A stretch of DNA of 36,179 nt. It comes from a virus. Positions 4,842 to 35,696 of the stretch are shown in pieces. The notes below the pieces were generated by a model. It did no database searches, was not told the DNA's origin, and worked only from the letters and a program-made list of their open reading frames with translations. A program made the position numbers and the translations under genes. Every line of letters starts with the position of its first letter. The stretch's first letter is position 1. The DNA is taken from IMG/VR virus record IMGVR_UViG_3300042321_001619, positions 1 to 36,179 of that record, one strand, 5' to 3'.

Positions 4842-4845
<4 letters not shown>
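4501..4845 (+). CDS. gpFII-like head-tail connector
   Basis: This 114-residue protein resembles lambda gpFII-type head-tail joining proteins that give the filled head its tail-binding surface. The diagnostic stretch is LVLDDQIVSVENALTIKTSELGGLRYGDHLSVDGETYRVR, followed by MLSVVSLEKI: a small beta barrel built around the 'YGD-x-x-x-V-x-G-x-x-Y-x-V' pattern. GC content drops from here into the next gene. Its stop overlaps the next start (ATGA). Confidence 0.8.
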
Positions 4846-8861
<4,016 letters not shown>

Positions 8862-20114: not shown

Positions 20115-20257
20115 GCGATCTACGCCTGGTGCTGGACCTGCTGCTGGCGCTGCTGGCCTGGCTGGCTGCTGAGGAGCTGGTTGTGAAGCCGTTTCTGCGC
20201 AGGAAGTACGAGCGGCTGGACGAGGCGCTGAAAGACCGGCTGCCGGATCTGGAATGA
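20111..20257 (+). CDS. Small single-TM protein, holin candidate
   Basis: This 48-residue ORF starts MSDLRLVLDLLLALLAWLAA, a membrane segment at about 4-21. A charged C-terminal half (VKPFLRRKYERLDEALKDRL) follows. It overlaps both flanking genes by 4 bases (ATGA). Size and position next to glycosidase and endolysin genes suggest a holin or antiholin, but no signature proves it. Confidence 0.6.
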   Translation: MSDLRLVLDLLLALLAWLAAEELVVKPFLRRKYERLDEALKDRLPDLE

Positions 20258-23768: not shown

Positions 23769-24764
23769 TTAGGCAACCGCCAGGGTGAGCTGCACCCCCA
23801 CCCGCACCCTCTGCCGCCGGCAGCGCTTCACCGCCAGAACCGGCACCCTGGCCACCGCCACCAACACCAGCTGAACCGACTGCGACGCCAGCGCCGCCTG
23901 CAGCCGCTCCAGCCGCACCTCCAGCGCCCGTGTCGAAAGCCCCTCCTGCTGGGCCAGCTCAGGCCGCGGCACCTCCACCCCGTCGAGACCCCAGGCCAGT
24001 GACAACAACCTGCGATCCTGCGGCGCCAACCTGGCGATCAGGCCGCGCAGCTGCTCTGCCTGGCGCCAGCGTTCGCGCTGTTCTTCTTCATCCTCTGGTG
24101 ACAGGTCCCATGTGGCCACGGTGCTGCCGAGCTCGAGGCCGTCCTCAGTCACCACCTGGTCGAGCGACCCGACCGGCCGGCCGTTCTCAACCACCTGCTC
24201 CAGCACCTTCAGGCTGACGCCCAGCTCTGCGGCGATCTCTGCCTGCGTTGGCGTGCGGTTCAGCTCGCGCTCCAGCCGCCGCGTGATCGGGCCCAGCTTC
24301 GCCAGGTGCTGGCAGTGGCTGCCGGGTATGGCAATGGCGCGGCCGTGCTGGTCCACCCAGCGGTTGATGGCCTGGCGAATCCACCAATAGGCGTAGGTGG
24401 AAAACCGGTAGCCCTTCGCCGGATCGAACCGCTCAGCGGCGGTGATCAGGCCCATGTTCCCCGCCTGGGTCAGATCTTCGCGGTCAAAGGACTTGGTGAG
24501 CCGGTGGCAGCGCTTGCTGATGTAGGCGATCACCAGCCGCAGGTTCGCCGAGACGAACCGGTCCCGCGCCCGCATGCCCCGGCGCCTGATCCCTGGCGGG
24601 CACGGGTCGGGATGGGTCTGCCATCGCTGAATTGCGGTGCCGAGTTCGATCTCTTCGGCAGGGGTGAGCAGCGGGATCCGACCAATCGAATCGAGCCACC
24701 AGGATTGGTTGGAGCTGGCCGGCACCGGACGAATTTTGACGGATCTGCTCCATTGTAGGTGCAA
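23769..24764 (-). CDS. Phage-encoded sigma-70 family factor (cyanobacterial RpoD-like)
   Basis: This 331-residue protein would bind host RNA polymerase and redirect it to selected promoters. Region 1.2 spans about 30-55 (IGRIPLLTPAEEIELGTAIQ). Region 2 spans about 65-150, including NLRLVIAYISKRC, DREDLTQAGNMGLITAAERF and the -10-reading helix FSTYAYWWIRQAINRW. Region 3 spans about 151-205 (RELNRTPTQAEIAAELGVS). Region 4 spans about 237-282 with a divergent -35 helix (PELAQQEGLSTRALEVRLER). A 49-residue Arg/Val-rich tail follows. The start is TTG, supported by AGGA 7 bases upstream; GTG at 24725 is the alternative. Its divergent upstream region holds promoter element P1. Region 2 looks host-like while region 4.2 is more diverged. 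Confidence 0.9.
   Translation of the reverse strand: MHLQWSRSVKIRPVPASSNQSWWLDSIGRIPLLTPAEEIELGTAIQRWQTHPDPCPPGIRRRGMRARDRFVSANLRLVIAYISKRCHRLTKSFDREDLTQAGNMGLITAAERFDPAKGYRFSTYAYWWIRQAINRWVDQHGRAIAIPGSHCQHLAKLGPITRRLERELNRTPTQAEIAAELGVSLKVLEQVVENGRPVGSLDQVVTEDGLELGSTVATWDLSPEDEEEQRERWRQAEQLRGLIARLAPQDRRLLSLAWGLDGVEVPRPELAQQEGLSTRALEVRLERLQAALASQSVQLVLVAVARVPVLAVKRCRRQRVRVGVQLTLAVA
24752..24757 (-). promoter_or_regulatory. TACAAT -10-like hexamer at sigma gene start
   Basis: On the minus strand TACAAT reads just inside the TTG start of the sigma gene. It would drive the gene only if translation starts at the downstream GTG (24725). It is listed because it bears on start choice and adjoins P1. 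Confidence 0.25.
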
Positions 24765-24787
24765 AACCGGTTCCTAAGCGGTACGAT
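24758..24787 (+). promoter_or_regulatory. Phage promoter-like element P1
   Basis: This is the first of three 30-bp elements. It starts GGTGCAAAACCGG, followed after 11 bases by TACGAT. Across P1, P2 and P3, 20 of 30 positions are identical, including all of GGTGCA, AACCGG, CC at 16-17, and T-A at the start and A-T at the end of the hexamer. The ATG of the + operon lies 33 bases after the hexamer. The usual -35 TTGACA is absent at 17-18 bp spacing, so recognition by a phage factor is likely. Confidence 0.7.
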
Positions 24788-24819
24788 TTGCAGGTCTGCA
24801 CCGGCAGTACGCCACCCCC

Positions 24820-25122
24820 ATGCAAACCCTCACCCCCCTGGAGTGCGAAGCCGCACTCTCCGATCTGATCCTGCAGGCCGCCCGGGCGTCCCTGCCGGCC
24901 CACGTTGATCACTTGATCGAGCTGCCCATCGTCGGCGAGCGGAACCAGCCGCTCATGCCGCTGCTGGTGGGGTTGGTCGATGCAGCGAAAGTCACCGCCA
25001 GCGCCATCGCGGACAACGCCTGGGACTCGGGTCAGGCCGTGCCAAAGGATCTCGCCGCCGACCTGCTGGCGGACCTGCGGGAGTGCATGAAGTTCGTCGG
25101 GCAATCGACGGAGGCGTTCTAA
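24820..25122 (+). CDS. First protein of P1 operon, unknown function
   Basis: This 100-residue acidic, helical protein starts MQTLTPLECEAALSDLILQA and ends with a helix pair (AADLLADLRECMKFVGQSTE). It is the first gene after promoter P1 and opens a run of overlapping or closely spaced small genes to 27168. No motif is recognised. Being first in a phage-specific operon, divergent from the sigma gene, makes a regulatory or host-takeover role plausible. Confidence 0.65.
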   Translation: MQTLTPLECEAALSDLILQAARASLPAHVDHLIELPIVGERNQPLMPLLVGLVDAAKVTASAIADNAWDSGQAVPKDLAADLLADLRECMKFVGQSTEAF

Positions 25123-25125
25123 CGA

Positions 25126-25293
25126 ATGGCCTATTTCATCACCTACATCAAAGACAACGAACGCCATGATCTCGAATGGATTGCCGGCAACGGCTGGACC
25201 AAGGATTCAATCCGCCAATGCTTCAAGCTTCGCTACCCGCAGGCACAGATCGTCTCGCTGCACGAGCGCCCGTGCTCTTCCCTCTTCATCTGA
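25126..25293 (+). CDS. Small protein, 55 residues
   Basis: The ORF starts ATG 3 bases after the previous stop and reads MAYFITYIKDNERHDLEWIA, then GNGWTKDSIRQCFKLRYPQA. It looks like a compact alpha/beta protein of the small phage class with a 'W-x-x-G-x-W-T-x-x-S-I-x-x-x-F-x-x-R-Y-P' pattern. No function is known. It is below the usual ORF size cut-off but has tight spacing and a clean start. Confidence 0.6.
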   Translation: MAYFITYIKDNERHDLEWIAGNGWTKDSIRQCFKLRYPQAQIVSLHERPCSSLFI

Positions 25294-25309
25294 TCACCGC
25301 CTGGCTGCT

Positions 25310-25474
25310 GTGCTGCGGCAGGACCAGGCGCGGAGAACTGCAGCTGCTGCCGCGTCCGCTGCCCGTCGCCGAGCCGTGATCGCCCTGGTGCTGTGCCTGC
25401 TGGGCATGGTGGCGGCGGTGGTGGTGTTGGACCGGGAGGCGCGGATTCAGCAGGTGGAGGTGCGCCGTGGCTGA
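25310..25474 (+). CDS. Small single-TM protein
   Basis: A 54-residue ORF starting at GTG 25310 encodes an Arg/Ala-rich cytoplasmic start, one membrane segment at about 25-42 (AVIALVLCLLGMVAAVVV) and a short charged end. The stop overlaps the next start at 25467. Another frame of the same DNA (25272-25379, GTG start) encodes a 35-residue hydrophobic peptide, so either or both could be used. Function unknown. Confidence 0.5.
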   Translation: MLRQDQARRTAAAAASAARRRAVIALVLCLLGMVAAVVVLDREARIQQVEVRRG

Positions 25475-25835
25475 TCATCCTGTGAAGGTGCCGGCGGAGT
25501 TGTTCACAAAATGGCTAAACGAAGCGATGGAAAAGACATCACTCAATGCCAAGCCTGGGACGGCCACCGCAGTGATGGCCGACAGGGCTGCCCAGTGGGG
25601 CGCAGATCAGGAGCTGGAGGCGTGCTGTGAGTGGCTCAGATCGAAAGACATTCTTGAGCCCGCCATTGATGCCCTTCGCACCGCCCGCCGCCCCAAGCCG
25701 CCGACGCTGGCGGAACAGGCCAAGGCTGAATTGGACGATGCGGTTATGCGCGGCGACTGCATAACCACGACAGACGCGATGCCTTCTCTTCGCGCCGCCC
25801 TCGCCCGTCTCGCTGAACTGGAGGCCCAGCAATGA
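25467..25835 (+). CDS. Helical protein of P1 operon
   Basis: The 122-residue product begins at GTG 25467, overlapping the previous ORF by 8 bases. It is mostly helical, with AELFTKWLNEAMEKTS and a C-terminal LRAALARLAELEAQQ that could form a coiled coil. It belongs to the type of small accessory ORF common in cyanobacterial prophages. No domain can be assigned. ATGA overlap links it to the next gene. Confidence 0.65.
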   Translation: MADHPVKVPAELFTKWLNEAMEKTSLNAKPGTATAVMADRAAQWGADQELEACCEWLRSKDILEPAIDALRTARRPKPPTLAEQAKAELDDAVMRGDCITTTDAMPSLRAALARLAELEAQQ

Positions 25836-26092
25836 AACTCAGATTGCCCCCAACCCGCTACCGCGTGGTGCGGGATGACTTCGCTGGCTACGAAGCGCAG
25901 TTTCGCCCGTGGTGGTCGCTGGCATGGATGCAGTGCTGCAGCCGCAGTGGCGGCGCAGGCGCCAACACTAGCGACACCATTGCGGGTGCCCGCAAGGCAT
26001 GCGCTGATCATGCCAAGCGCCGGCGGAATCCCAATCCTGTCGGCCAAATCGTCGCCCGATTCTCTGTCTGTGAACTGGAGGCCAACCAATGA
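25832..26092 (+). CDS. Small basic protein of P1 operon
   Basis: This 86-residue ORF starts MKLRLPPTRYRVVRDDFAGY. It contains EAQFRPWWSLAWMQCC and a basic middle (AGARKACADHAKRRRNP), then a Val/Ala strand near the end. It overlaps the neighbours by ATGA on both sides. The sequence layout suggests a small single-domain protein; function is unknown. Confidence 0.65.
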   Translation: MKLRLPPTRYRVVRDDFAGYEAQFRPWWSLAWMQCCSRSGGAGANTSDTIAGARKACADHAKRRRNPNPVGQIVARFSVCELEANQ

Positions 26093-26322
26093 CCTTCACC
26101 CCCGACGACTCCCCCTGCCAGTCCACTGGCGAGGGCATCACCCGCACCGCTGCACCGGGGGCCATTTACTGGCCTGTGGAAATCACGTTCGCCTGCCGCC
26201 AGCCGATGCGCTGCACCATCCGCGCCGTGTCGAAACAACAGGCGCACCAGTTCGCCGAGCGCCGGCATCCAGACGCCAGCTCTATCACCATCCTCTCTCG
26301 GAGGTCCACGTCATGGCTCTAA
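26089..26322 (+). CDS. Small protein of P1 operon
   Basis: This 77-residue ORF begins MTFTPDDSPCQSTGEGITRT and contains CRQPMRCTIRAVSKQQAHQF followed by AERRHP. It overlaps the previous gene (ATGA) and the start of the next (26313). No domain is recognised; it could be a small beta-sheet protein. Confidence 0.6.
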   Translation: MTFTPDDSPCQSTGEGITRTAAPGAIYWPVEITFACRQPMRCTIRAVSKQQAHQFAERRHPDASSITILSRRSTSWL

Positions 26323-26525
26323 CCGCAACCCTCACCGCCAACCCCTGGCGATTCGCCACAGGTGACGAAGTGTTCATCGCTGGCCATCCACAATTCGCCG
26401 CCAAAGTCACCGCCGCATTCGGCCATGGCCGCTCAGGCTGGCCGCATTACGTGGTGGTCGATTACCAAGGCGCCGAGTGGACCGTGCCGCAACAGATGCT
26501 CTCCAAGATGCCGATCCTGCCGTAA
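26313..26525 (+). CDS. Small beta-rich protein of P1 operon
   Basis: This 70-residue ORF starts after a GGAGGT-like ribosome site (26300-26305): MALTATLTANPWRFATGDEV, then a run with alternating strands including HYVVVDYQGAEWTVPQQML. The pattern resembles a small SH3-like or KOW-like barrel, which is inference only. Its stop overlaps the next start (TAATG). Confidence 0.65.
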   Translation: MALTATLTANPWRFATGDEVFIAGHPQFAAKVTAAFGHGRSGWPHYVVVDYQGAEWTVPQQMLSKMPILP

Positions 26526-27004
26526 TGAAAGGCAAGGAATGCCCAGAGTGCGGCGAGATGGCGTTCTCGACCATCGCCAGCCGCATGATTGACGGTGAGC
26601 GCTACCGCCGCAAACAGTGCCGGGCCTGTCAGTACCGGGTGTCAGAGATCGGCGATCGGCTGCTGCCAGCACGGCGCAACACGCCCGGCGCCCGTCGCCC
26701 CGGGGCCAGGCGGTTCAGTGCTGAGCAGATCGCCGAAATGGTCGCGCTCAAAGGCACCACCACCCTGCGGGCGATTGGCCAGCAGTTCGGCTGCAGCGGT
26801 GAGTCGGTGCGGCAGATTTTCGCTGGCATGCTCTACCGCGACCTGCTGCCCGAGAACTACCGGCCAGCACCAGGGCCTGGCGATCCGTCGTGTGAGCACT
26901 GCCGGGAGTGGAGGGGCGAGACCTGCAGCTTGGGATTCCCTGATCCGATCGAGGAAGGCCCCGGGTTTGCTCGGGACTGCAATCTGTACGTAAAGGAGGG
27001 GTGA
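26525..27004 (+). CDS. Zinc-ribbon and HTH putative DNA-binding protein
   Basis: The 159-residue product starts with a zinc ribbon like the NrdR N-terminus: Cys6, Cys9, Cys32, Cys35 in CPEC and CRAC. Residues about 62-95 form a helix-turn-helix (FSAEQIAEMVALKGTTTLRA, then IGQQFGCSGESVRQIFAG). The C-terminal part has a second Cys cluster (CEHCREWRGETC and a final Cys) that may bind another zinc. It is probably a phage regulator expressed from the P1 operon, possibly an early or middle switch. It begins at TAATG with the previous gene. Confidence 0.75.
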   Translation: MKGKECPECGEMAFSTIASRMIDGERYRRKQCRACQYRVSEIGDRLLPARRNTPGARRPGARRFSAEQIAEMVALKGTTTLRAIGQQFGCSGESVRQIFAGMLYRDLLPENYRPAPGPGDPSCEHCREWRGETCSLGFPDPIEEGPGFARDCNLYVKEG

Positions 27005-27168
27005 TGGTGCGGTTGTGCAGCCCCCCGAAGACAGTGCGTGAAGCGCTGCTCTCAATGCTCAAGAGCTACGAGAAAGAGGTTCGATCGGGTCGCCACGTTC
27101 CCCCACCGTTACCGATCGAAGAACGGCCTGCATCACAGTTCGCTGATCCTGTGGCGAGCCGGACGTGA
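27004..27168 (+). CDS. Small ORF at end of P1 operon, overlaps integrase 3' end
   Basis: This 54-residue ORF starts ATG inside the previous stop (TGATG) and encodes MVRLCSPPKTVREALLSMLK, then a basic stretch. It overlaps the convergent recombinase by about 110 bases. The start coupling supports it, but the long antisense overlap lowers confidence. No domain seen. Confidence 0.4.
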   Translation: MVRLCSPPKTVREALLSMLKSYEKEVRSGRHVPPPLPIEERPASQFADPVASRT

Positions 27169-28378
27169 AGAACCGCGGATCCTGCATCGCCCTGTAGGCA
27201 GCAGGATCCACCGCCGACTGCTCCACCCTCCGCAGCGCCTCGATCCGCTGGCGCTGCTCAGCCACCGCTGCCGCCATCGCCCGATTCTCGGGGTTGCGTG
27301 CGGCCATTCGCTCCATTAGCTCCAGCTCATCGGCCATCGCCGCCACTGCCGGATCCTGGGCCTGGGGCTCAGCCAGCAGCAGCGCCAGACGCCCGGCCTC
27401 AGCCACGCAGGCCTCGACAACAACTGGCAGGATTCGATCCTCACGGGCGCCGCCTCGAGCTGTGCAGAGCCGATGCCTGCACCGCCACCAGGCAACGCCA
27501 TTCGAGGTGTTCCGCCGCAGCAGATGGCCGCATGATCTGCACCGCAGCAGCCCCGTAAGTGCATGAGCCACTTCGGTGCTGCTGGCGTTTCTGAATCGAT
27601 TGGTCGGCCGCCGCAGCAGATCAGCGAGCTCCCGCCAGTCCTGTTCGCTGATCAGTGCCGGGTGCTGGTCGCAGAGGATCTCGCCCCAGCGCTGGCCCCA
27701 GCCCTTGCCTGACTTCTTGTCGAGGTGGTGGCCGATGTGCCCGCGGATCACGGGATTCACGAACCAGGCCTGCAGGCTGGTGGCGGCCGGCGTCCAGCTG
27801 CACCACCCCGGCAGCGTGCGTGAGACTGCCGCGAAGCTCCCCAGCCGGCGCAGATCCCGCAGCACCCGCAGCGCCTGGGGCCACTGCTCAGGGTGCGGCT
27901 GCAGCCGGTGCCCTGGGCCTGCCTGGTAGCCGAACGGTTTGCGCCGGCGCAGGTGGCGGCCCTCGGCACGGTAGACGGCGAACTGTCGCCGCAGCCTCAG
28001 GCTCAGCATGCGGGACTCCATCTCTGCCAGGCCGGTCTGCAGCCGGGCCATCAGGAATCCCTGGGGTGTGACTGTCTCGATCGCCCCGCCGTCCAGGGCT
28101 CGGACAGTGACGCCTTGGGCCTCGCACTGGGTTAGGAGGGTGTCGGTGTAGGCCGCGTCACGCCCGAGCCGGTCCACGCGGGTCACAAGCAGCTCGCGGA
28201 CCTGCCCGGCCCGGACCATCGCCATCACTTCCAGTAGGCCATCGCGGTCCGTGCTCCGTCCGGTCTCGATGTCAGTGATTACCCGGCTGCAGCCGGCAGC
28301 ATCGAGGCGGCTGACCTGAGCAGGGAGGCTGTCCGCTTGATCCTCCTTGCTGACCCGGGCGTAGCCGATGACGTGCAT
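27059..28378 (-). CDS. Large serine recombinase (integrase)
   Basis: This 439-residue protein is a serine site-specific recombinase. It opens MHVIGYARVSKEDQ with catalytic Ser10, and has Arg67, Asp69, Arg70 and Arg73 in RVDRLGRD. The long helix starts near 104 (PQGFLMARLQTGLAEMESR). Recombinase domain residues are about 145-260. A zinc ribbon uses Cys280, Cys283, Cys300 and Cys305, followed by a coiled coil (about 330-400). It resembles the XisF/large-serine type found in cyanobacterial elements, a family-level inference. It most likely integrates and excises this phage. The gene lies between the P1 operon and the early minus operon, the usual place for an attP next to the integrase start. 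Confidence 0.92.
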   Translation of the reverse strand: MHVIGYARVSKEDQADSLPAQVSRLDAAGCSRVITDIETGRSTDRDGLLEVMAMVRAGQVRELLVTRVDRLGRDAAYTDTLLTQCEAQGVTVRALDGGAIETVTPQGFLMARLQTGLAEMESRMLSLRLRRQFAVYRAEGRHLRRRKPFGYQAGPGHRLQPHPEQWPQALRVLRDLRRLGSFAAVSRTLPGWCSWTPAATSLQAWFVNPVIRGHIGHHLDKKSGKGWGQRWGEILCDQHPALISEQDWRELADLLRRPTNRFRNASSTEVAHALTGLLRCRSCGHLLRRNTSNGVAWWRCRHRLCTARGGAREDRILPVVVEACVAEAGRLALLLAEPQAQDPAVAAMADELELMERMAARNPENRAMAAAVAEQRQRIEALRRVEQSAVDPAAYRAMQDPRFFTSGSPQDQRTVMQAVLRSVTVGERGDPIEPLSRSS

Positions 28379-28477
28379 AGGATCGGCCCAGAACGGACTG
28401 AGAGCCTACCCTGCGCTATGGATTCGTTTTCCTTAGATACCGGCAGCAGAGCGCACAGGGAATCGGTACCCTGAACC
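28379..28477. other. Intergenic gap beside recombinase start; attP candidate region
   Basis: A 99-base gap between divergent genes. Large serine integrases usually act on an attP of about 50 bp close to their own gene, so this gap is the best place to look. I see only a short GGTACC palindrome and no convincing long inverted repeat. No host gene fragment is visible here. Confidence 0.3.
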
Positions 28478-28684
28478 ATGCACATCCCCACCACCGAACT
28501 GGTGATCCGCGACGGGCAGCCGACCTGGCTGGTGCAGTGGCAGGGGGTCGAGGCCGTCAGTGCCAGCCGTCACGCGGCGCTGCGGTCGTTTCGCTGGAAA
28601 TGCCAACGCCGCGGACTGCAGCTCCCTGGTGGGAACGAGCAGCCGCGGCGGGGGCCTTCGGAGTGTGATGAGCCGGGGGTTTAG
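28478..28684 (+). CDS. Small basic protein divergent from recombinase
   Basis: This 68-residue ORF encodes MHIPTTELVIRDGQPTWLVQ, continuing WQGVEAVSASRHAALRSFRW. It is Arg-rich at the C-terminus. Its position next to the integrase recalls recombination directionality factors, but no motif supports that role. The 3' end overlaps the convergent minus operon by 4 bases. Confidence 0.5.
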   Translation: MHIPTTELVIRDGQPTWLVQWQGVEAVSASRHAALRSFRWKCQRRGLQLPGGNEQPRRGPSECDEPGV

Positions 28685-28899
28685 GGGGTAGGGTCGAGTT
28701 CGGTGGCGATGGCAGCGAGTTGGCGGCGATCGTGTGTCAGGTGAGGCGCAGCGGCATGAAGGGCGGCGGCGATGCAGACTTCCTGCCAGTTGTCCTCCAG
28801 GGGACCCAGCAGCTCGTAGCGATCGTCGAACGCGGTCACGATGGCTTGGGCTGCTGGGGAAAGGACCATTTTCGTGGGGTCAGGAAATTGGTCAGCCAC
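28681..28899 (-). CDS. Small helical protein, last gene of minus operon
   Basis: This 72-residue ORF starts at GTG 28899 (VADQFPDPTKMVLSPAAQAI) because GTGGCTGA overlaps the previous stop at 28892-28894. It is helical and contains DNWQEVCIAAALHAAAPH. ATG at 28869 would give a shorter form. No domain is known. It is the distal end of the minus-strand operon. Confidence 0.55.
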   Translation of the reverse strand: MADQFPDPTKMVLSPAAQAIVTAFDDRYELLGPLEDNWQEVCIAAALHAAAPHLTHDRRQLAAIATELDPTP

Positions 28900-29263
28900 G
28901 GTCGGCCTCCTGGCAGAGGTTGAACGCCACCGCGCTAGCCTCGGGGGACTTGGGGTAGCGATCGCGCAACCACTTGGCCACTTCACTAAGCACGTCTTCG
29001 GCCGCCGCCCTGCTTGTCTTGGCAAGGGTGATAACCGTGGCCACCCTCTCCACCAGCGACCCGCCATCTGTCAAGGATTCCTTGACGGTTGGCCTCGCCT
29101 CAGCACTGGCGGCGCGGAGTTCGTCCATGGCGGTATCTTCGTATGCAGCCTCCAGCGCCTCCACCCGCCGAACGATGGCATCAGTGCAGAACCTGTGGCT
29201 CTCGGCCTGCTCCAGCTGGGCGGCCTCCAGGGCTTCGATGCGGTCTCGAATTGGGCCAGTCAT
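28892..29263 (-). CDS. Coiled-coil protein
   Basis: This 123-residue protein starts MTGPIRDRIEALEAAQLEQA and has two coiled-coil helices, the second beginning RRVEALEAAYEDTAMDELRA. It ends WLRDRYPKSPEASAVAFNL. Upstream in-frame sequence is Pro/His-rich and not protein-like, so ATG at 29263 is chosen. Function unknown. Confidence 0.65.
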   Translation of the reverse strand: MTGPIRDRIEALEAAQLEQAESHRFCTDAIVRRVEALEAAYEDTAMDELRAASAEARPTVKESLTDGGSLVERVATVITLAKTSRAAAEDVLSEVAKWLRDRYPKSPEASAVAFNLCQEADRG

Positions 29264-29294
29264 GGTTGGGTTTCCGTGGTGATGTGGTGAGTGA

Positions 29295-29474
29295 TCAGGC
29301 CGCAGCCAACCGGCGAGCGGTGGTCTGTGAGCAGCCCAACCGCTCAGCGATGGCGCGGTACGTGAGCCCATCGCGGCGCCACCTGCGAGCGCGTTGCTGA
29401 CGGGACTCTGTGGCCCACAACAGGAACAGGACAGGGAAAAACAGCAAGGCCAGGATGGTGCAGATGGTGGTCAT
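29295..29474 (-). CDS. Single-TM protein with C-terminal helix-turn-helix
   Basis: This 59-residue protein starts MTTICTILALLFFPVLFLLW (membrane segment), then a basic linker (ESRQQRARRWRRDG), and ends with an HTH: LTYRAIAERLGCSQTTARRL. The order membrane then HTH matches the 19653 protein. It lies downstream of promoter element P2 (-10 at 29528-29533). A longer version from GTG 29510 is possible. It may be a tethered DNA-binding protein. Its family is not recognised. Confidence 0.65.
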   Translation of the reverse strand: MTTICTILALLFFPVLFLLWATESRQQRARRWRRDGLTYRAIAERLGCSQTTARRLAAA

Positions 29475-29527
29475 GGCAATGGTGGCGAGTGGATGGCCAG
29501 CGCCGCGCACGGGCTGCTGGTGATGAA

Positions 29528-29557
29528 ATCATACCGGGTGGGTTCCGGTTCTGCACC
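29528..29557 (-). promoter_or_regulatory. Phage promoter-like element P2
   Basis: On the minus strand the element reads GGTGCAGAACCGG, then after 11 bases TATGAT. It faces the membrane-HTH gene at 29295-29474. The sequence matches P3 at every one of the first 17 positions. Spacing from box to hexamer is identical in the three copies. Confidence 0.7.
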
Positions 29558-29648
29558 CTAGGGGGTGGGGATTGGCAGGGCGTGGGCGGAATGGGTGGGT
29601 CATGCCCGCCCCTCCTGCCGCAGCTCGGTGGCGAGGGGGTTGGGGCGG

Positions 29649-29723
29649 TCATGAAAACGACAGCAATAGGAACAGAAGGCCCAGAAGGAACAGCAACTCC
29701 AGAAAGAACAGCAACTCGTGCAT
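29649..29723 (-). CDS. 24-residue Leu/Phe-rich membrane peptide (candidate)
   Basis: ATG at 29723 opens a 24-residue peptide that begins MHELLFFLELLFLLGLLFLL and ends SFS. It would span the membrane once. The DNA contains an imperfect tandem repeat (two copies of GAACAGCAACTC on the plus strand). The stop overlaps a following ATG (ATGA). Translation is not proven; no clear ribosome site is visible. Confidence 0.4.
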   Translation of the reverse strand: MHELLFFLELLFLLGLLFLLLSFS

Positions 29724-29754
29724 CACTGAGTGCCGGGGGATAGGGGTGGGGTTG

Positions 29755-29997
29755 TCATTTGCTAGGCAACCGATGCGGAAGGATTTTCCATAGCCTGGGC
29801 TCGATTTCAATCACTGCTGAGCACTGGCGTAGCAGACGGGCTGCAGTTGCTGCGCCAAGCGCGAAAACCTGCCCCCGTGCGTTATGCGTCCTGCCATTTG
29901 GCCATAGCCTTTCAGCAAGCATATTGGCACGCAAAGTAGTTACACCTTCGTTGTGCATCGCAGCAACCTCTAGCAATACGGAGTTCGCAGTTTTCAC
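29755..29997 (-). CDS. Small winged-helix-like protein
   Basis: This 80-residue ORF starts MKTANSVLLEVAAMHNEGVT and contains LRANMLAERLWPNGRTHNAR and AATAARLLRQCSAVIEIEPR. The helix-helix-strand pattern resembles a small winged helix with a preserved AERLWP turn. It is somewhat less GC-rich than its neighbours. Its start overlaps the upstream stop by 4 bases (ATGA). Function unknown, DNA binding possible. Confidence 0.6.
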   Translation of the reverse strand: MKTANSVLLEVAAMHNEGVTTLRANMLAERLWPNGRTHNARGQVFALGAATAARLLRQCSAVIEIEPRLWKILPHRLPSK

Positions 29998-30317
29998 CCC
30001 ACCTCCGCACCGGGCACCGGTAGGGCGTGGTGGGGGAGCCAGTGCCGGTAATGAGCCTGGCTGTCGTCAAGCTCCCACGATTCGTGCTGGTGGCACCACC
30101 ACCAGCACCTCCCCTCCGCATCGCAATCCTCCGGCCCCGGCAGCCGCTCAGCGACGGGCACCGGCCCGATGGTGGGGCGGCCCCACAGCTCTAGGGCGCG
30201 GCGCATGGCTGGCACTGGATCGCCATTAAACACGTCCGCCAGGTCGTAGAGATCCTCGTCCGTCGGCCGCCCCTGCGGCTCAGGCTGTGCCAGGGCCGTC
30301 CGGTAATCAGTGCTCAT
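29994..30317 (-). CDS. DUF551-like protein
   Basis: The 107-residue protein contains DLADVFNGDPVPAMRRALEL followed by PVPVAERLPGPEDCDAEGRC, then WWW and a HYRHWLPHHALPVP end. This corresponds to the DUF551 pattern 'V-x-ERLP-x-x-x' and 'HW-P-x-x-x-LP-P'. Many phages carry such proteins, often in strings of accessory genes. Its biochemical role is not known. Confidence 0.75.
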   Translation of the reverse strand: MSTDYRTALAQPEPQGRPTDEDLYDLADVFNGDPVPAMRRALELWGRPTIGPVPVAERLPGPEDCDAEGRCWWWCHQHESWELDDSQAHYRHWLPHHALPVPGAEVG

Positions 30318-30592
30318 CGTTGATCTCCAGAGTGGGTGAATCCATCCAACCAGTCCGCCACCGAACTGGACCCACCGTGGCGCTCCCTGAGCACCTGCCC
30401 CAGCTCAGCAGCGACGCTGCGGGCGACACCAGAGCATGTCTCGCAGGGCTTAGAGCACCGGGCCGGCATGGGGCAGGCGGCCAGGGATAACCGGGTGGAC
30501 AGCGGTGGTGGGCGCCGGGCCTGATCACTGGTGACAGGCGCGGTGGCGATGCGGGCCATGGCCTGCTGGGTGGGGGTGGTGAGGGTGATCAT
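30314..30592 (-). CDS. Cys-containing small protein
   Basis: The 92-residue product starts MITLTTPTQQAMARIATAPV and has a central CPMPARCSKPCETC cluster, suggesting metal binding. A C-terminal helix follows (RSVAAELGQVLRERHGG). It overlaps both flanking genes by 4 bases (ATGA). No family is recognised. Confidence 0.55.
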   Translation of the reverse strand: MITLTTPTQQAMARIATAPVTSDQARRPPPLSTRLSLAACPMPARCSKPCETCSGVARSVAAELGQVLRERHGGSSSVADWLDGFTHSGDQR

Positions 30593-30732
30593 CGGGGGGT
30601 GGGGTTGTGGATCCGGTCATTCACGATCCGCCGCAGCAGATCGTTCATCCCCTCGCCAGGGCGGAGCTGGCGGCGGAGGGCCTCGACCTCGGGGAGGGTG
30701 AGGACGATGGTTAGGCGGCGGGTTTCGGTCAT
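30589..30732 (-). CDS. Small ribbon-helix-helix-like protein
   Basis: This 47-residue ORF encodes MTETRRLTIVLTLPEVEALR and continues with RRQLRPGEGMNDLLRRIVND. A short strand followed by two helices and a basic end is the pattern of ribbon-helix-helix DNA-binding proteins, such as Arc/CopG. It overlaps the methyltransferase stop and the next start (ATGA). It is shorter than the usual ORF threshold but well placed. Confidence 0.6.
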   Translation of the reverse strand: MTETRRLTIVLTLPEVEALRRQLRPGEGMNDLLRRIVNDRIHNPTPR

Positions 30733-31712
30733 GGTGTGGTGAGGGTGAGAAGTGACGGCTGCTCCGTGCCGATACAGGCCGGGGACAGCCAGAGCCGTTC
30801 GCGGCGACCGTTAATCGGGTTGACGCTGTAGCCAGCCCCTCGGCCCGCTTTGCCCTCGGTGACGCTCCAGCCGTGGGCCAGCAGGGCGTCGTGCTCATCG
30901 TCGTAGCCGCAGAGGATGATCCGCAGCTCTCGCGGCGCAGCAGTGCACCACTCGCGCACGCCAACGGCAACATCACCGCCGGCATGAGCGTACAGATCGC
31001 CGCTGGTGGCGTAGGGCGGGTCGAGGAAGACGGCGCGGCTGCCGTCTCCACCGGTGCCAGATCGGGTGACAGATGGCTTGACCACCCGCTCCCATGATCC
31101 GCAGGTGACCCGAACCCGATGCAGCCGATCCGTCAAGGCCTGCATGTAAGCCCGCAGCTGGCCTTGCCCTGCGTCGCCCAGGTGGGGCAACTCTCGGTTG
31201 ACGCCTTGCCCTGCGTCGCCCAGGTGGGGCAACTTTCGGTTGACGCCGCGCCCTGCGTTGCCCACTTTCCGCAGGTGGCCGTCTACCACCCGCCACGGGC
31301 CAGGGCCGAATGGGTCGCCGATCCCGCAGGCCAGGACATAGAGCCACCAGCCGGCGGCCTTCGCATCGTGCGCCTCGGGGTCGCCCTCCAGCCACGCCAC
31401 CAGATCAGGCGTGCGGCGTTCCTGCAGCCACGCCAGGCGGGCGTGATAGTCGATCTCAGCCACCGGTCCCCACGCTGCAGCGGCGACGGCATCAGGGCTC
31501 AGCTGGATTGACCGCCAGGTGTTGACCAGCCAGCCGTCAGCATCGTTCAGGGTTTCGACCCGGCGCCCCTTGAATGACGGCCTGGCCAGCAGCACGGCGG
31601 CTGATCCGGCGAATGGCTCGACGTACCCCGACGGGTCGCCTAGAGCCTGCCAGATTCGTGGTGCGGCGCGGCGCTTGCCGCCGAAGTATGGGAACGGCGC
31701 GGCGAGACTCAT
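30729..31712 (-). CDS. D12-class adenine-specific DNA methyltransferase
   Basis: The 327-residue protein is a Dam-like N6-adenine methyltransferase. It has the FGGK motif (10-13), the SAM-binding VEPFAGS (31-37), and catalytic DPPY (231-234) in the D12 alpha order. A region of about 34 residues (151-184) is a tandem repeat of roughly 14 residues (NRKLPHLGDAGQGV) inserted before the catalytic half. It may protect phage DNA from host restriction or alter regulation. No partner restriction enzyme is seen, so it is probably an orphan. Its start overlaps the upstream HTH gene's stop. Confidence 0.9.
   Translation of the reverse strand: MSLAAPFPYFGGKRRAAPRIWQALGDPSGYVEPFAGSAAVLLARPSFKGRRVETLNDADGWLVNTWRSIQLSPDAVAAAAWGPVAEIDYHARLAWLQERRTPDLVAWLEGDPEAHDAKAAGWWLYVLACGIGDPFGPGPWRVVDGHLRKVGNAGRGVNRKLPHLGDAGQGVNRELPHLGDAGQGQLRAYMQALTDRLHRVRVTCGSWERVVKPSVTRSGTGGDGSRAVFLDPPYATSGDLYAHAGGDVAVGVREWCTAAPRELRIILCGYDDEHDALLAHGWSVTEGKAGRGAGYSVNPINGRRERLWLSPACIGTEQPSLLTLTTP
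31162..31264 (-). repeat. 42-bp coding tandem repeat inside the methyltransferase
   Basis: Two 42-bp units (31162-31203 and 31204-31245) differ at one base, followed by a partial third unit. Each unit is 14 codons, so copy-number changes keep the frame and would lengthen the loop between the SAM-binding and catalytic halves. Confidence 0.9.
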
Positions 31713-32032
31713 CCCATCCCCCTCAACCCATGCACCCGATACCCGCCCCAGCCGGTGGTGATGTCGGCCAGGCCGGCGGCGGCCACGGCATTCACCCGGC
31801 GCGACACGGTGGACTGATCACAGCCCCACGCCTCGCGCAGAGTGGCGGTGGACGCGACGCCACAGCCGCCGGTGAGCACCCGGATGTGCAGGTAGTCCAT
31901 CAGCACCCGATCGCTGATCGTGCGGCGCATGGCCACCAGCTGGCGGATCGGCATGGCAGCCGGGCGCTGGGCCTCCATGCGGAGCTGGGCCAGCACGGTC
32001 TCGGCGGCGATGCGGAGTTTCGTAGCGCTCAT
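31709..32032 (-). CDS. Winged-helix/HTH DNA-binding protein
   Basis: This 107-residue protein has a C-terminal HTH (REAWGCDQSTVSRRVNAVAA followed by AGLADITTGWGGYRVHG). That resembles MarR- or replication-initiator-like winged helices that read DNA and finish with a hairpin. It is placed between the methyltransferase and small ORFs in the early operon, so a regulator is likely. It overlaps its neighbours (ATGA both sides). Confidence 0.65.
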   Translation of the reverse strand: MSATKLRIAAETVLAQLRMEAQRPAAMPIRQLVAMRRTISDRVLMDYLHIRVLTGGCGVASTATLREAWGCDQSTVSRRVNAVAAAGLADITTGWGGYRVHGLRGMG

Positions 32033-32244
32033 CGCAGATCCTCCCGCAGCATCCGCGCTGCGTCGTGCGCCGACAGCCGGCCCTCATTGCGCTGGTGCAT
32101 CACCAGCAGCTCAGCGGCCAGATGCTCGATTACGGCAGCCACGCCACGGCGGCGGGCGGAGGCGTCGGGCCAGGCCTGCAGTGCATCGTTGAAGGCCTCT
32201 TCATAGGCCACGGTGCAGCGGCATAGCAGGGTGTTGTCAGGCAT
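32029..32244 (-). CDS. Small helical protein
   Basis: The 71-residue ORF starts MPDNTLLCRCTVAYEEAFND and ends LSAHDAARMLREDLR. The upstream in-frame sequence is Trp/Arg/Pro-rich and not convincing, so ATG 32244 is chosen. The start overlaps the preceding stop by 4-8 bases. No domain identified. Confidence 0.55.
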   Translation of the reverse strand: MPDNTLLCRCTVAYEEAFNDALQAWPDASARRRGVAAVIEHLAAELLVMHQRNEGRLSAHDAARMLREDLR

Positions 32245-32368
32245 CACTCCCCTCCCCCACCAACCGCTCACACAGCGCCCACCACAGCGACGTGGCCAGG
32301 GTGGCGGTGCCGACAATGACCAGCACGGCAATGATCTCGACCATGCCGGCGAGGATGCAGAGGGTCAT
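32237..32368 (-). CDS. Small single-TM protein
   Basis: A 43-residue ORF starts MTLCILAGMVEIIAVLVIVG after a strong ribosome site (GGAGGGGAGG). It contains one membrane segment of about 27 residues and a short acidic tail. It overlaps genes on both sides. It could be a small host-membrane modulator; no family is recognised. Confidence 0.6.
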   Translation of the reverse strand: MTLCILAGMVEIIAVLVIVGTATLATSLWWALCERLVGEGSDA

Positions 32369-32556
32369 GGCCTCCCCTCCCTGCAAACCCAATTTCCGCA
32401 CCAGTCGTCAGGGCTGACAGGCGGCCACTTACCGCCGCGTGGGCCGAGCTGCGGCGGGTTGGCGTGGCAGGTTGTCAGGTCGTCGCACTGATGCGGCCTG
32501 CTGTAGCGGCAGTTGGAGCAGGCCTGCTGCTCCAAGGGGGTGTACGTGTAGCTCAT
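32365..32556 (-). CDS. Cys-rich zinc-binding-like small protein
   Basis: This 63-residue protein shows MSYTYTPLEQQACSNCRYSR, later CDDLTTCHANPPQ, and PVSPDDWCGNWVC. The arrangement of CxxC near the start with later Cys and a WCG-type end recurs in small phage proteins that likely bind zinc. It overlaps neighbours by 4 bases. Role unknown. Confidence 0.65.
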   Translation of the reverse strand: MSYTYTPLEQQACSNCRYSRPHQCDDLTTCHANPPQLGPRGGKWPPVSPDDWCGNWVCREGRP

Positions 32557-32831
32557 GCCTCTGCCTCCCTGACCTGCTGCCGGAGCGCCCGCAGCAGCAC
32601 CGCCGTGGGGGATTCGCGGAGCATCGCCAGCTGGTGGTCGATCAACACGATCACGCGAGCTCGCATGATCTCCCCGCCTTCCCGTATGGCGGCCTGCAAC
32701 GCTGGTGCTTCGTGCAAGGCCTCAGTGGCACGGGCGACGGCGGCCTGTTCGGCGGCGAGGGCCTGTTGGTCGGTTTCGATTCGGGCTAGCAGGTCGTCAA
32801 GCTGCTGGCGGATGGTGTCGATGCGTTGCAT
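32553..32831 (-). CDS. Coiled-coil protein downstream of SSB
   Basis: The 92-residue protein starts MQRIDTIRQQLDDLLARIET and is helical throughout, with a long N-terminal coiled coil (EQAAVARATEALHEAPALQA) and a helix LAMLRESPTAVLLRAL near the end. It lies 4 bases after the SSB stop. Function unknown, possibly an assembly partner of the DNA metabolism genes. Confidence 0.6.
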   Translation of the reverse strand: MQRIDTIRQQLDDLLARIETDQQALAAEQAAVARATEALHEAPALQAAIREGGEIMRARVIVLIDHQLAMLRESPTAVLLRALRQQVREAEA

Positions 32832-32835
32832 GGGT

Positions 32836-33294
32836 CTAAAAAGGAACGTCGTCTTCGTTGATGTCGCCGCCCAGTGGGGCTGAGTTCCATGCAGGCGCGG
32901 CGGGCTGAGCTGGCGCTGCTTGGCGAGCTGGAGCAGGGGCCTGCTGCTGAGCCGGTGCGTCGCTGCCGGATCCCTGCTCGCTGTCTTTCTTCGAGCCCAT
33001 CAGCTCCAGCCGATCGACGCGAATCACGACCTTTGAGCGCTTCTCGCCGGTCGTGCGGTCGGTCCAGCTCTCGATGCGAACTGAGCCGATCACGCCGATC
33101 AGCGAGCCCTTGCGCACGCAATCAGCCGCCACCTGGGCCTGCTTGCCCCAGATCTCCAGGTTGAACCAGTCGGGATCTTCATCCCGCTTCATCCGGTTCA
33201 CCGCCAGGGTGAGGTTTGCCACCATCGTGCCGGTCTCGAAGTAACGAACTTCGGGATCGCGGCCGGCGCGGCCTGTGAGTGTGATGCAGTTCAT
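32836..33294 (-). CDS. ssb: Single-stranded DNA-binding protein
   Basis: The 152-residue protein has an SSB OB-fold at about 1-100: MNCITLTGRAGRDPEVRYFE, VANLTLAVNRM, and DWFNLEIWGKQAQVAADCVR then GSLIGVIGSV. A Gln/Pro/Ala-rich tail follows and the protein ends in the acidic tip DDVPF, which recruits partner proteins. It protects single-stranded DNA in replication and recombination. It lies directly downstream of the recombination genes in the early operon. Confidence 0.95.
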   Translation of the reverse strand: MNCITLTGRAGRDPEVRYFETGTMVANLTLAVNRMKRDEDPDWFNLEIWGKQAQVAADCVRKGSLIGVIGSVRIESWTDRTTGEKRSKVVIRVDRLELMGSKKDSEQGSGSDAPAQQQAPAPARQAAPAQPAAPAWNSAPLGGDINEDDVPF

Positions 33295-33330
33295 GGTGAA
33301 AAGGGGTAAGGAACCGGCTATGCAGCCCAG

Positions 33331-33966
33331 TCAGGCAGACCAGGAGGCAGGCAAGTCGTCAGGGTCTTCGGCTGGCTCAGGCGCCGGGTTGCACTTCGCC
33401 ACGGTTTCAGGGCTGATCCCGTTGGCGATGATCCGCTGCAGCACCTCGCGGGGGAGATCGGTCAGCTTCGAGGCATCACCACCGCTGACCAGCTGGCAGA
33501 ACGCGGTGATGCCCTCGAACGTCAGGCCAGCCGCCACGCAGGCATCAGCGGCTGGCTTCACCGGGTCAACAGGCGGGGCCATCTTGAGCGGCTGCACTTT
33601 GTAGGGCGAGCGCTTTTGGCGGGTCACGGTGAGCGCAATACTCAGCGGACTGTCGAGGCCGGACAGGTGCGAGATCCGGATTCCACCAACCTGGATGCCG
33701 CCGTACGTGACGCTCGGGTCGCGAAACAGGGTGATGCCCCGGCCCACGTACTCCTTGGCATCGGCGCCCCAGGCAGCCACCAGGACCCGCCTCATGGATT
33801 TGCACGGATACCACGGTTTCCCTTGGTCGCCTTCATAGCTGATCGCTACCGGCTGATCTGCTGTGCCTGCTGAGACGTTCGTGATCGTGATTGTCAGCGG
33901 TCCGGCGATCAGGTCGTCTGTTGTCAGCTGGTTCGACTTCGCCGCCAGCGTTGGTGTCATGTCCAT
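33331..33966 (-). CDS. Recombination-associated protein of unknown function
   Basis: The 211-residue protein starts near MTPTLAAKSNQLTTDDLIAG and has VAISYEGDQGKPWYPCKSMR, YVGRGITLFRDPSVTYGGIQ, and GGIRISHLSGL. Related sequences occur in many phages next to exonucleases. The beta-rich middle may be an OB-like fold, followed by an Ala-rich linker and a helical tail. Because no RecT- or Redbeta-like protein is visible in the window, it is a candidate for the annealing or loading role. That is inference. It sits between exonuclease and SSB, 3 bases after the exonuclease stop. Confidence 0.65.
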   Translation of the reverse strand: MDMTPTLAAKSNQLTTDDLIAGPLTITITNVSAGTADQPVAISYEGDQGKPWYPCKSMRRVLVAAWGADAKEYVGRGITLFRDPSVTYGGIQVGGIRISHLSGLDSPLSIALTVTRQKRSPYKVQPLKMAPPVDPVKPAADACVAAGLTFEGITAFCQLVSGGDASKLTDLPREVLQRIIANGISPETVAKCNPAPEPAEDPDDLPASWSA

Positions 33967-33968
33967 GA

Positions 33969-34667
33969 TCAGATCACAATCTCCTGTTCAGGTTGGATGG
34001 GTTCAGTGGCCGGGAACTGCGCGGCAATGGCCTGGTACTGCACCATCAGCCCGGCGAGCTGTTCCTCGGCGGCCTGCGCTGCAGCGATCAGCTGGCCGAT
34101 CACGTCCGGGTCACGCTGCACACGGCGCACGAACAGCGGCAGGCCTGGTGCGTAGGAAATGAAGTCGCACCAAGCGCGGCCGGATACGGCTAGGCCGGTC
34201 TGCACCTGCGGGAGGTACTCAGTCGGCACCTCGCCAGTGATCAGCGACTTCAGGTGGGTCTTCTGCCGGGGCGCCTTGATCTCAATGAGCCCGTCGTCGC
34301 CCACCAGGCCGTCTGGTGAGTAGCCGATCACCACGCCGCTGAGCTGGCAGCTGATGAACCCGCACTCCTGCACCGGCTCGTAGTTCTTGGCGTAGAGATC
34401 CCTGGCGTAGGGCTCGAGCAGATGCCCGCGGGCCATGTCGTCGTTGTAAAACGACGCGTCCGACTCACCGGTGATCCGCTCAGCCAGCAGCTGATACAGC
34501 TGGGCGCGGCTGGTGTCGTTGTTGGCTGGCTTGCCGGTGCCGGTGAGCAGCTTGGCGATTGCGCTGGCAGTGATCACGCCGCGGCGGATCGCCTGCCATT
34601 CGTCGGTGCCCTGCTCAATGTCGAACCGGTAGATCGGTGCGGGCGCCTTGGTGGCGGTCTGGGGCAT
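33969..34667 (-). CDS. YqaJ-type phage exonuclease
   Basis: This 232-residue protein matches the YqaJ/lambda-exonuclease nuclease fold. IEQGTDEWQAIRRGVITASA opens it; Glu85 in GHLLEPYARD, Asp119 in IGYSPDGLVG, and Glu129 and Lys131 in LIEIKAPR form the D/E-x-K metal site. LPQVQTGLAVSGRAWCDF is the final helix. It should digest one strand of double-stranded DNA ends for recombination. Promoter P3 lies 25 bases upstream of the start. Confidence 0.9.
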   Translation of the reverse strand: MPQTATKAPAPIYRFDIEQGTDEWQAIRRGVITASAIAKLLTGTGKPANNDTSRAQLYQLLAERITGESDASFYNDDMARGHLLEPYARDLYAKNYEPVQECGFISCQLSGVVIGYSPDGLVGDDGLIEIKAPRQKTHLKSLITGEVPTEYLPQVQTGLAVSGRAWCDFISYAPGLPLFVRRVQRDPDVIGQLIAAAQAAEEQLAGLMVQYQAIAAQFPATEPIQPEQEIVI

Positions 34668-34691
34668 GGCGGCGGGGCTGTGGATTCCCGT

Positions 34692-34721
34692 ATTGTAGCG
34701 CTAAGGTTCCGGTTCTGCACC
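34692..34721 (-). promoter_or_regulatory. Phage promoter-like element P3
   Basis: On the minus strand it reads GGTGCAGAACCGG, then after 11 bases TACAAT at 34692-34697. The exonuclease start is 25 bases downstream, a normal leader length. It overlaps a 9-bp inverted repeat (34713-34736), so a repressor or activator could compete here. Confidence 0.7.
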
Positions 34722-34750: not shown

Positions 34751-34780
34751 TTGACCCCCCCCCCCCAGTCGTACTACTGC
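34751..34780 (+). promoter_or_regulatory. Promoter-like region with a 12-C spacer
   Basis: TTGACC at 34751-34756 resembles a -35 element, followed by 12 consecutive C bases (34755-34766) and TACTAC/TACTGC near 34772-34780. The tract sits where a -35/-10 spacer would be, so length changes would alter promoter strength for the + ORF at 34791. A sequencing artefact is also possible. Confidence 0.4.
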
Positions 34781-34790
34781 TGGATAAGTG

Positions 34791-34985
34791 ATGCACCCCG
34801 CCATGATCCAGGCCCACTGCGCCGACGCAGCCGCTGCCGCCCAGCTCTGGCGGATGCTCTGCCATGTGCCAGACGACGACTTCCAGCCGATCGACGTGCA
34901 CGTGGCCGGCGAGCTGGCCTACCGGGTGATCAGGACCTCAGGCGGCGATCAGACAACAGCTCCGCCTGCAGCTGAGCAGGGGTGA
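34791..34985 (+). CDS. Small protein opposite the HTH regulator
   Basis: A 64-residue ORF from ATG 34791 encodes MHPAMIQAHCADAAAAAQLW, then RMLCHVPDDDFQPIDVHVAG. It reads towards the regulator gene and overlaps its 3' end by about 56 bases. The codon pattern and acidic composition look protein-like. It could be a Cro-like or antirepressor partner by position only; no HTH is visible. Confidence 0.45.
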   Translation: MHPAMIQAHCADAAAAAQLWRMLCHVPDDDFQPIDVHVAGELAYRVIRTSGGDQTTAPPAAEQG

Positions 34986-35673
34986 AGGTCTCCAGCCCGC
35001 GGACCTGGCGGACCATCTCCGCCAGCGCTGCCAGCTCCGACTCCAGCTCCTTGTGTGACAGCGGCTCGCCCATCAGCAGCTCCTTCAGCCGGGCCTGGCG
35101 GACGTTGTTGGTGGCGGCGGGATAGGCCGCCAAGAACTCCCGCAGCGCCTCGCGTGGGCCCCAGCCCTGTTCCGCTGCCAGATCGTCGAGCAGGTCGATC
35201 AGCCGTTCGCTGGCCCGCCGCGCCTGGTTCTGGGTCAGGCGACCGCCCACGTAGGGGAGATCCAGCCTGCCCATCAGCAGGCAGGCGAAGTCGCCCAGGT
35301 CGAGCGGTTTCGACTCGTCGTAGGGCTTCGGCAGCCAGACCGTATCCGACACCCACTCGGGCTGGACGCCGTGTTCGGAGTACAGGCCGAACTCCCGAAT
35401 GGCCTCACGCTCACCTTGCGTCTGCCAGACCCAGATGGCCCGGTTCGTTTCCGCAAGGGCATCGAGGTGGCGAAGGCCGGCGCCGCGGCTCTGCTTGCCG
35501 TTCTTGATCCGGCTGAAACTGCCCCCGTCAAACCCGGTAGTCTCCCCGTAGGCCCAGTGCACAAGGCTGGCCATCCGGTCCTGACTGAGCCCGTGCGCCA
35601 GCCAGTACGTGATGGCAGCGGCCAGCTGTTGCACGCCACGTTCCTGGCGCAGGTCGGAGGTTTCTTTTTCCAT
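34930..35673 (-). CDS. Putative HTH regulator (repressor candidate)
   Basis: This 247-residue protein has an N-terminal helix-turn-helix-like region: LAAAITYWLAHGLSQDRMAS, then GSFSRIKNGKQSRGAGLRHL, the latter with the typical 'S-x-IKNGK' recognition-helix look of Xre-like proteins. The middle contains DLGDFACLLMGRLDLPYVGG, and the tail is helical (ELESELAALAEMVRQVRGLE). No S24 self-cleavage motif is seen, so induction would differ from lambda CI. A 12-base inverted repeat (35685-35696) lies 11 bases upstream of its start. It lies between nuclease and exonuclease genes in the early operon. Confidence 0.65.
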   Translation of the reverse strand: MEKETSDLRQERGVQQLAAAITYWLAHGLSQDRMASLVHWAYGETTGFDGGSFSRIKNGKQSRGAGLRHLDALAETNRAIWVWQTQGEREAIREFGLYSEHGVQPEWVSDTVWLPKPYDESKPLDLGDFACLLMGRLDLPYVGGRLTQNQARRASERLIDLLDDLAAEQGWGPREALREFLAAYPAATNNVRQARLKELLMGEPLSHKELESELAALAEMVRQVRGLETFTPAQLQAELLSDRRLRS

Positions 35674-35684
35674 GTATCAACCGT

Positions 35685-35696
35685 AGCGGTTCCGCT
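35685..35696. promoter_or_regulatory. Inverted repeat AGCGGTTCCGCT, operator candidate
   Basis: AGCGG-TT-CCGCT is symmetric with a 2-base centre. It lies between the VRR-NUC stop and the regulator start, 11 bases before the ATG, a common place for autoregulation. Related bases (CGGTTCC) occur in the P elements. Confidence 0.4.

Follow-up and report, generated by a model that had tools for sequence, protein, structure and literature searches.

The middle promoters of phage T4, which depend on MotA/AsiA (PMC6755090), carry a phage element in place of the -35 sequence and keep the -10 hexamer. T4 late transcription (gp55-gp33-gp45) combines a phage sigma-family factor with the host core polymerase, and the clamp-binding motif of gp55 lies in the C-terminal region of the protein (PMC7892883). 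Many cyanophages carry sigma factors, and no description of the box presented below or of target promoters for the sigmas of this phage group was found in the cyanophage literature, where few subscription papers were covered and the absence is weak evidence. Here we describe three copies of a 30-base element, P1, P2 and P3, in the IMG/VR viral record IMGVR_UViG_3300042321_001619, of which positions 1 to 36,179 (36,179 nucleotides, nt) are called the window below. The window begins at the portal gene, and the promoter of the structural operon lies beyond the study. Each element has an upstream box followed by a -10-like hexamer, and the window also encodes a sigma factor. As in T4 middle promoters, a phage element stands in the -35 place and the -10 is kept. 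Unlike in T4 middle promoters, a phage sigma is present, and the box is longer and nearer the -10. The likeness to T4 late transcription extends to QLxL-type ends on many of the sigmas studied here. Unlike gp55, this sigma keeps region 3 and probably region 4, and an upstream promoter element is present, the link to the clamp being one of motif only.

The nearest isolate is Synechococcus phage S-LBS1 (MG271909). Its sigma is 78% identical over 81% of the query, and it has a homologue of the gene that starts at position 24820 of the window, next to P1 (the 24820 gene). S-LBS1 has two sites of the same architecture, GGTGCCRATRCGGTATG-N8-TAGGGT. The first faces the sigma gene and precedes Gp157, and the second precedes a helicase gene. 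They differ from those of the window in the inner half of the box, which is GGTATG, and in a spacing that is one base longer. Promoters of this phage were predicted with PePPER, and the portion of the paper at hand makes no mention of such a box (PMC6157547). The marine cyanosiphoviruses S-CBS1 and S-CBS3 have a related sigma (34-35%) and a similar genome plan. Unlike the window, they have no QLxL tail on the sigma, and no box was found in scans that included a pair search without coding mask (both lay outside the S-LBS1-wide pattern scan given below).

P1, P2 and P3 have 20 of 30 positions common to all three by hand count, as the initial annotation had reported (Table 1). An exact scan for GGTGCARAACCGG-N11-TAYRAT found exactly three matches in the window, which are P1, P2 and P3, and none in 100 dinucleotide shuffles of it. 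The 13-base part alone is weaker evidence than the whole element, with 55 window matches at up to 3 mismatches against 27.8 expected. A fourth exact copy of this part lies without a hexamer at 14198-14210, inside gene 11209-14370. The two further points made initially, that starts lie close behind P1 and P3 with a helix-turn-helix (HTH) gene behind P2 and that no normal TTGACA is present, also held. At 16-18 base pairs (bp) spacing, the best match to TTGACA at P1-P3 as read from the sequence was 3/6. The elements lack a canonical -35 and have a TANNNT -10 shortly before a start codon. A feature overlooked earlier is a second -10-like hexamer facing P1, so placed that the P1 box is common to both hexamers. 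In many relatives this position holds TATGAT or TATAGT.

Table 1. Promoter elements, sigma gene and neighboring genes in the window
Feature	Position	Strand	Description
P1	24758..24787	+	Box GGTGCAAAACCGGTTCC and -10-like TACGAT; faces the sigma gene, as is kept in relatives; hexamer ends 32 nt before the ATG of the 24820 gene
P2	29528..29557	-	Box and TATGAT; hexamer ends 53 nt before ATG 29474 of the small HTH gene
P3	34692..34721	-	Box and TACAAT; hexamer ends 24 nt before ATG 34667 of the YqaJ exonuclease
Second -10-like hexamer	24752..24757	-	TACAAT; abuts the P1 box and points into the sigma gene; putative function
Phage sigma factor	23769..24764	-	331-amino-acid (aa) frame from TTG 24764
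Sigma C-terminal tail	23772..23858	-	Residues 303-331; low model confidence (block means 47-54); ends QLTLAVA
24820 gene	24820..25122	+	100 aa; three predicted helices; family tracks the box
Small protein behind P2	29295..29474	-	Hydrophobic stretch (by eye); HTH-like C-terminus
YqaJ-type exonuclease behind P3	33969..34667	-	PF09588, E 1.9e-22
Regulator-like protein	34930..35673	-	No Pfam or PHROG match; not favored as box reader

The elements were then sought in other genomes. A strict pattern matched 19 viral-contig stretches and a relaxed full-length pattern, which misses S-LBS1 and the TGCATCC variants described below, matched 65. The relaxed pattern had no match in the genome contigs of a collection of 84,980 species. 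The looser pattern proposed in the initial annotation matched 28 stretches of genome contigs, where the rough chance expectation was about 15. Most of these belong to Bacillota, and no title among them is cyanobacterial. Both counts bear on a refutation proposed initially, that the motif would be common across the host genome away from phage genes. The 28 Bacillota-rich stretches (L243-L270) could share a conserved gene stretch.

Next, 42 phage contigs (G numbers) were fetched in pieces, 20 chosen by the box, 19 by the sigma and three by a relative of the regulator-like protein at 34930 (the 34930 regulator). The 19 sigma-picked contigs were taken from 80 sigma loci after the intergenic sequences had been inspected and are not a blind sample. 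A pattern broad enough to include the S-LBS1 sites was then run over the 42 contigs, S-LBS1 itself and the window. It matched 68 sites exactly, 19 with a single mismatch and 22 with two mismatches, compared to 0, 2 and 9 in reversed-sequence controls. Fifteen of the 109 matches were removed by eye because they did not stand before a gene, 14 of them with two mismatches and one (G042) with one. One removed match, at 2582 in G018, may be real, as the sequence downstream of it resembles that behind site 2197 of G031. Of the sites kept, 86 have at most one mismatch. In 51 of these, a frame of 60 aa or more opens with an ATG 17-32 nt beyond the hexamer, compared to 186 of 3000 random positions, and 71 have such an ATG at 15-66 nt, compared to 527 of 3000. 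These positions were taken from all sequence, so that part of the ATG excess reflects only the intergenic location of the sites. If the hexamer is placed at -12 to -7 from the presumed start site, the box falls at about -36 to -20 and its inner half lies in the spacer. A direct-repeat search found no second box in G017. Weak repeat pairs such as that of G028 were discarded, since as many as 6 pairs (G030), and one of 18/24 (G010), arose by chance in shuffled sequence. The sequence comparisons give good support to the view that P1-P3 belong to a real family of phage promoters in which the -35 is replaced by a non-standard element.

To see which genes follow the sites, the genes behind them were clustered by the 3-mers they share, and a family search was run with one member of each cluster. 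Next to the site that faces the sigma gene stood Gp157 in 10 records, the 24820 gene in the window, G038 and G039 (154 nt away in the latter two) and one of several unrelated genes elsewhere. The site at the recombination genes was followed by a RecT-like gene in nine contigs, by a Sak4-like gene in G016 and by YqaJ in the window, G010 and G038-G040. The small HTH gene stood behind a box in 16 records besides the window, and genes named helicase-like by eye stood behind other sites in G002, G003, G018, G026 and G038. In G017 a box is directed into the sigma gene itself. G030 and G031 carry a tandem pair of sigma genes, and there a box is directed into the first of the pair. These tandem genes, about 60% and 29% identical to that of the window, occupy 20177-21971 in G030 (L219) and 23813-25586 in G031 (L221). 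Across the 42 contigs and S-LBS1, the promoter is kept while the gene behind it is swapped, suggesting that the element belongs to the position and the programme and not to one gene. It is very improbable that the element is a conserved non-promoter site, for example for replication or packaging, since its orientation and start-codon distance are fixed at unrelated genes and its -10-like hexamer keeps a fixed spacing.

The box itself differs among lineages, mainly in the inner half, and the outer GGTGC is mostly kept. Counting all clade-pattern matches in the fetched stretches, the TGCATCC type was found at 4/4 sites in G030 and at 4/4 in G031 (sigma 61-62% identical), with no GGAACC type there. 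These sites include those at Gp157, a RecT-like gene and a sigma gene. An extra G031 site, 2197 on the minus strand, is CACATCC and falls outside the TGCATCC pattern. GGTATG was found at 2/2 sites of S-LBS1, and 3/3 sites of G026 begin with GCTGC. The clade patterns had no match in reversed controls. If all sites of a genome had one reader, it would impose just such a parallel change on them. The proposed regulon is common to a group of phages of freshwater cyanobacteria, so that it extends beyond the phage of the window, and its sequence is not fixed. The initial interpretation is supported in part.

From these sequence patterns, we consider it somewhat probable that P1-P3 are promoters of the phage sigma and drive a replication/recombination module. 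Each promoter would consist of an extended -10 (CGSTAKRRT-like) and a 17-bp box replacing the -35, with the consensus GGTGC-R-R-A-W-S-S-GG-AACC in most lineages, and the phage sigma would direct host RNA polymerase to it. The sigma gene's own -10-only promoter, facing P1, would presumably be read first by the host sigma. The sigma product would then activate the module, with its helicase-like operons, RecT, Sak4 or YqaJ, Gp157 and small accessory genes. The outer GGTGC would probably be read by region 4.2, and the extended -10 by regions 2.4 and 3.0. A further contact would probably be needed for the inner half, perhaps with a phage partner such as the 24820 protein.

The co-occurrence of box and sigma was counted over all 80 loci (among the stretches with L numbers), which were found by the sigma alone and are at most about 11 kb long, so that a phage may have a box even where its locus has none. 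Where the sigma was at least 66% identical to that of the window (42 loci), 34 had a box with at most one mismatch. At 48-65% identity, three of six loci had the TGCATCC type and three had none, and below 48% none of 32 had a box. The reversed control over the 80 loci gave a match in one at one mismatch and in nine at two. A sigma was encoded in 15 of the 20 box-picked contigs, and the box was present in 14 of the 19 sigma-picked ones (11 with at most one mismatch, G033 with two, and G030 and G031 with the lineage type). Sigma identity in these 19 was 61-88% with a box and 41-66% without. In most relatives the box faces the sigma gene. A profile search with 12 window genes over 46 records matched the sigma in 40 and the 24820 family in 34, including every record that had both sigma and box.

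The initial annotation had also named the 34930 regulator and a zinc-ribbon (Zn-ribbon) protein as possible readers. Both are weakened, as neither tracks the box over the 46 records. The regulator was found in 12 of them and not in S-LBS1, whose complete genome bears the box. Nine box records, five of them with the sigma (G017, G025, G030, G031 and G033), lack the Zn-ribbon protein, which is present in box-less G029 and G041. Likewise, S-LBS1 lacks the small HTH protein, whereas four box-less records, G028, G041, G042 and S-CBS3, have it. The suggestion that the phage sigma reads the box fared better, with the sigma as the best single candidate because of its position, its co-occurrence with the box and the lineage-wise change, all of which concern sequence.

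Several observations weigh against the sigma as reader. At the 42 loci with a sigma at least 66% identical, four had only a box with two mismatches and four had none. Seven records have a sigma and no box, namely G028, G029, G032, G041, G042, S-CBS1 and S-CBS3; in the five contigs no box with at most one mismatch was retained (the match removed by eye in G042 was of this kind). Six box records, G009, G013, G015, G016, G018 and G040, gave no sigma match. They also lack 24820 and may be fragments that end short. The sigma of G017 (48-50% identical, helix GMTARQMSAQL) is paired with a window-type box, and box-less L105, L107 and L112 keep an STR or SVR helix. Box types are mixed in G010 (two GGAACC sites and one GGTATG) and vary in G024. 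The phages are related, and the co-occurrence counts are not independent. Also, sigma factors do not usually make contact at about -25 to -20, where the inner half lies. Finally, 24820 tracks the box both ways and the sigma only one way, which goes against the sigma as reader in its simple form. This pattern is expected if some of the sigmas have another specificity, but also fits 24820 as reader or partner.

Another possible explanation, although a doubtful one, is that a separate phage activator or coactivator, 24820 or an unrecognized protein, reads the box, much as MotA of T4 does, and that the host or phage sigma reads the -10 only. A box that spans the spacer, without the usual sigma contact, and that varies in its inner half by lineage would fit such a protein. 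So would the distribution of 24820, for which the seven box-less sigma records gave a single weak match, in S-CBS1. However, the 24820 model consists of three helices (predicted local distance difference test (pLDDT) score 79.7, predicted template modeling (pTM) score 0.67) with no recognizable DNA-binding domain and no match in a fold search of the PDB (best E 8.6), and the gene may be a mere neighbor of the sigma. A tblastn search over 50,697 phage records found one relative of 24820, in S-LBS1. No MotA or AsiA was found among the 10 window proteins scanned with Pfam. A 24820-family protein at L102:4325-4678 (minus strand) has an N-terminus like the start of Gp157 (MTTLFDLTAD) and is perhaps a fusion.

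It is improbable that a phage repressor uses the box as its operator, that the promoters beneath it belong to host RNA polymerase and that the phage sigma is unrelated to the box. Cyanobacterial promoters often have no -35, some boxes show a partial dyad (5/8 pairs in P2, shuffled P 0.02 for at least 5), and the palindrome before the 34930 regulator's own gene contains CGGAACC, as does the box. The dyad is not kept, however, with 1 to 5 of 8 pairs over 11 boxes. Nothing else in the window matches the palindrome at 3 mismatches, and records with the regulator do not coincide with those that have the box. An operator of cI/Cro type was, therefore, rejected. The palindrome, CGGAACCGCTACGGTT, lies at 35679-35694 on the minus strand, directly before the regulator gene, and is a possible autoregulatory site. 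A perfect CCGGAACCG-CTA-CGGTTCCGG stands at the corresponding place in L159.

The sigma protein was examined for features that could bear on its role as the favored reader. GTG 24725 is its likelier start because TTG 24764 lies upstream of the second hexamer. Pfam r1_2, r2 and r3 scored above their cut-offs, and phrog_351 matched with E 8.5e-52. Region 4 scored below its Pfam cut-off, and helices were modelled there at 267-274 and 278-302 (block pLDDT 73-91) within a model of mean pLDDT 76.8 and pTM 0.43. Compared with NVSRERVRQLE of a canonical-type phage sigma, the recognition helix, GLSTRALEVRLE, is changed at the four positions that contact the -35. [STA]-x-R is kept in this helix in the box-bearing lineages compared, and the TGCATCC lineage has KPAR. 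The link between the helix pattern and the box is suggestive only.

The beta-clamp motif, QLxLF, is usually C-terminal (PMC4549789). Of 76 related sigmas, 36 have QLx[LM] within their last 14 residues, where shuffling gave a mean of 1.08 and at most 5, and 22 have it with a hydrophobic fifth residue (0.32 shuffled). Because the sigmas are related, this excess is not a probability. One of the 22 (L138) falls inside region 4.2 by position and is probably due to chance. Examples of the tail are QLSLFAA, QLSMFT, QLALF, QLRLF and QLALPL, with QLSLF in one lineage. Another 15 sigmas have a longer tail with QLVLVP inside, and the sigma of KBS-S-2A ends in QLPLIP. The tail in the window has no large residue at position 5 and is weak as a clamp motif. 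These motifs suggest, as a tentative idea, that the sigma could be tethered to the host beta clamp by its disordered tail and that box promoters could fire from replicating phage DNA. By analogy, this might be a siphophage counterpart of T4 late transcription, borrowing the host clamp together with a lineage-owned two-part promoter box, although we hold that likeness to be doubtful too. If the tail does bind the beta clamp, clamp-linked transcription would exist outside T4-like phages. More broadly, the family provides a defined regulon in a freshwater cyanophage group and a natural lineage series in which sigma and promoter vary together, as if each lineage had a private transcription code. 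Its members are candidate orthogonal promoters for cyanobacteria.

Some minor observations were also made. A box-like site that contains CGGTAGGAT occurs in G007, G008, G011, G015 and G021, for example near 10807 in L163. It precedes a pair of genes without an assigned role (MNVLQQLRAAV... and MANPQKRKGSAFERL...), and in G015 another gene takes the place of the first. A different repeated promoter-like motif, GTCCGC-N-AG..TTACA, occurs at 29365, 30014 and 30471 in G041 (L237) and at 3386 and 4844 in G033 (L223), and one G041 copy has TTGACA 17 bp before TACAGT. In S-LBS1, identical 30-base sequences lie at 34331 and 34585 (L069), 254 bp apart near the end of the record. In the window, a run of 12 C (G on the minus strand) at 34755-34766, upstream of P3, may be a slippage site or an assembly error, and a six-base tandem repeat at 5331-5425 encodes Pro-Glu repeats in the 1339-aa gene 4842-8861. 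A serine recombinase at 27059-28378 (minus strand), with Resolvase and recombinase Zn-ribbon domains by Pfam, suggests a temperate phage.

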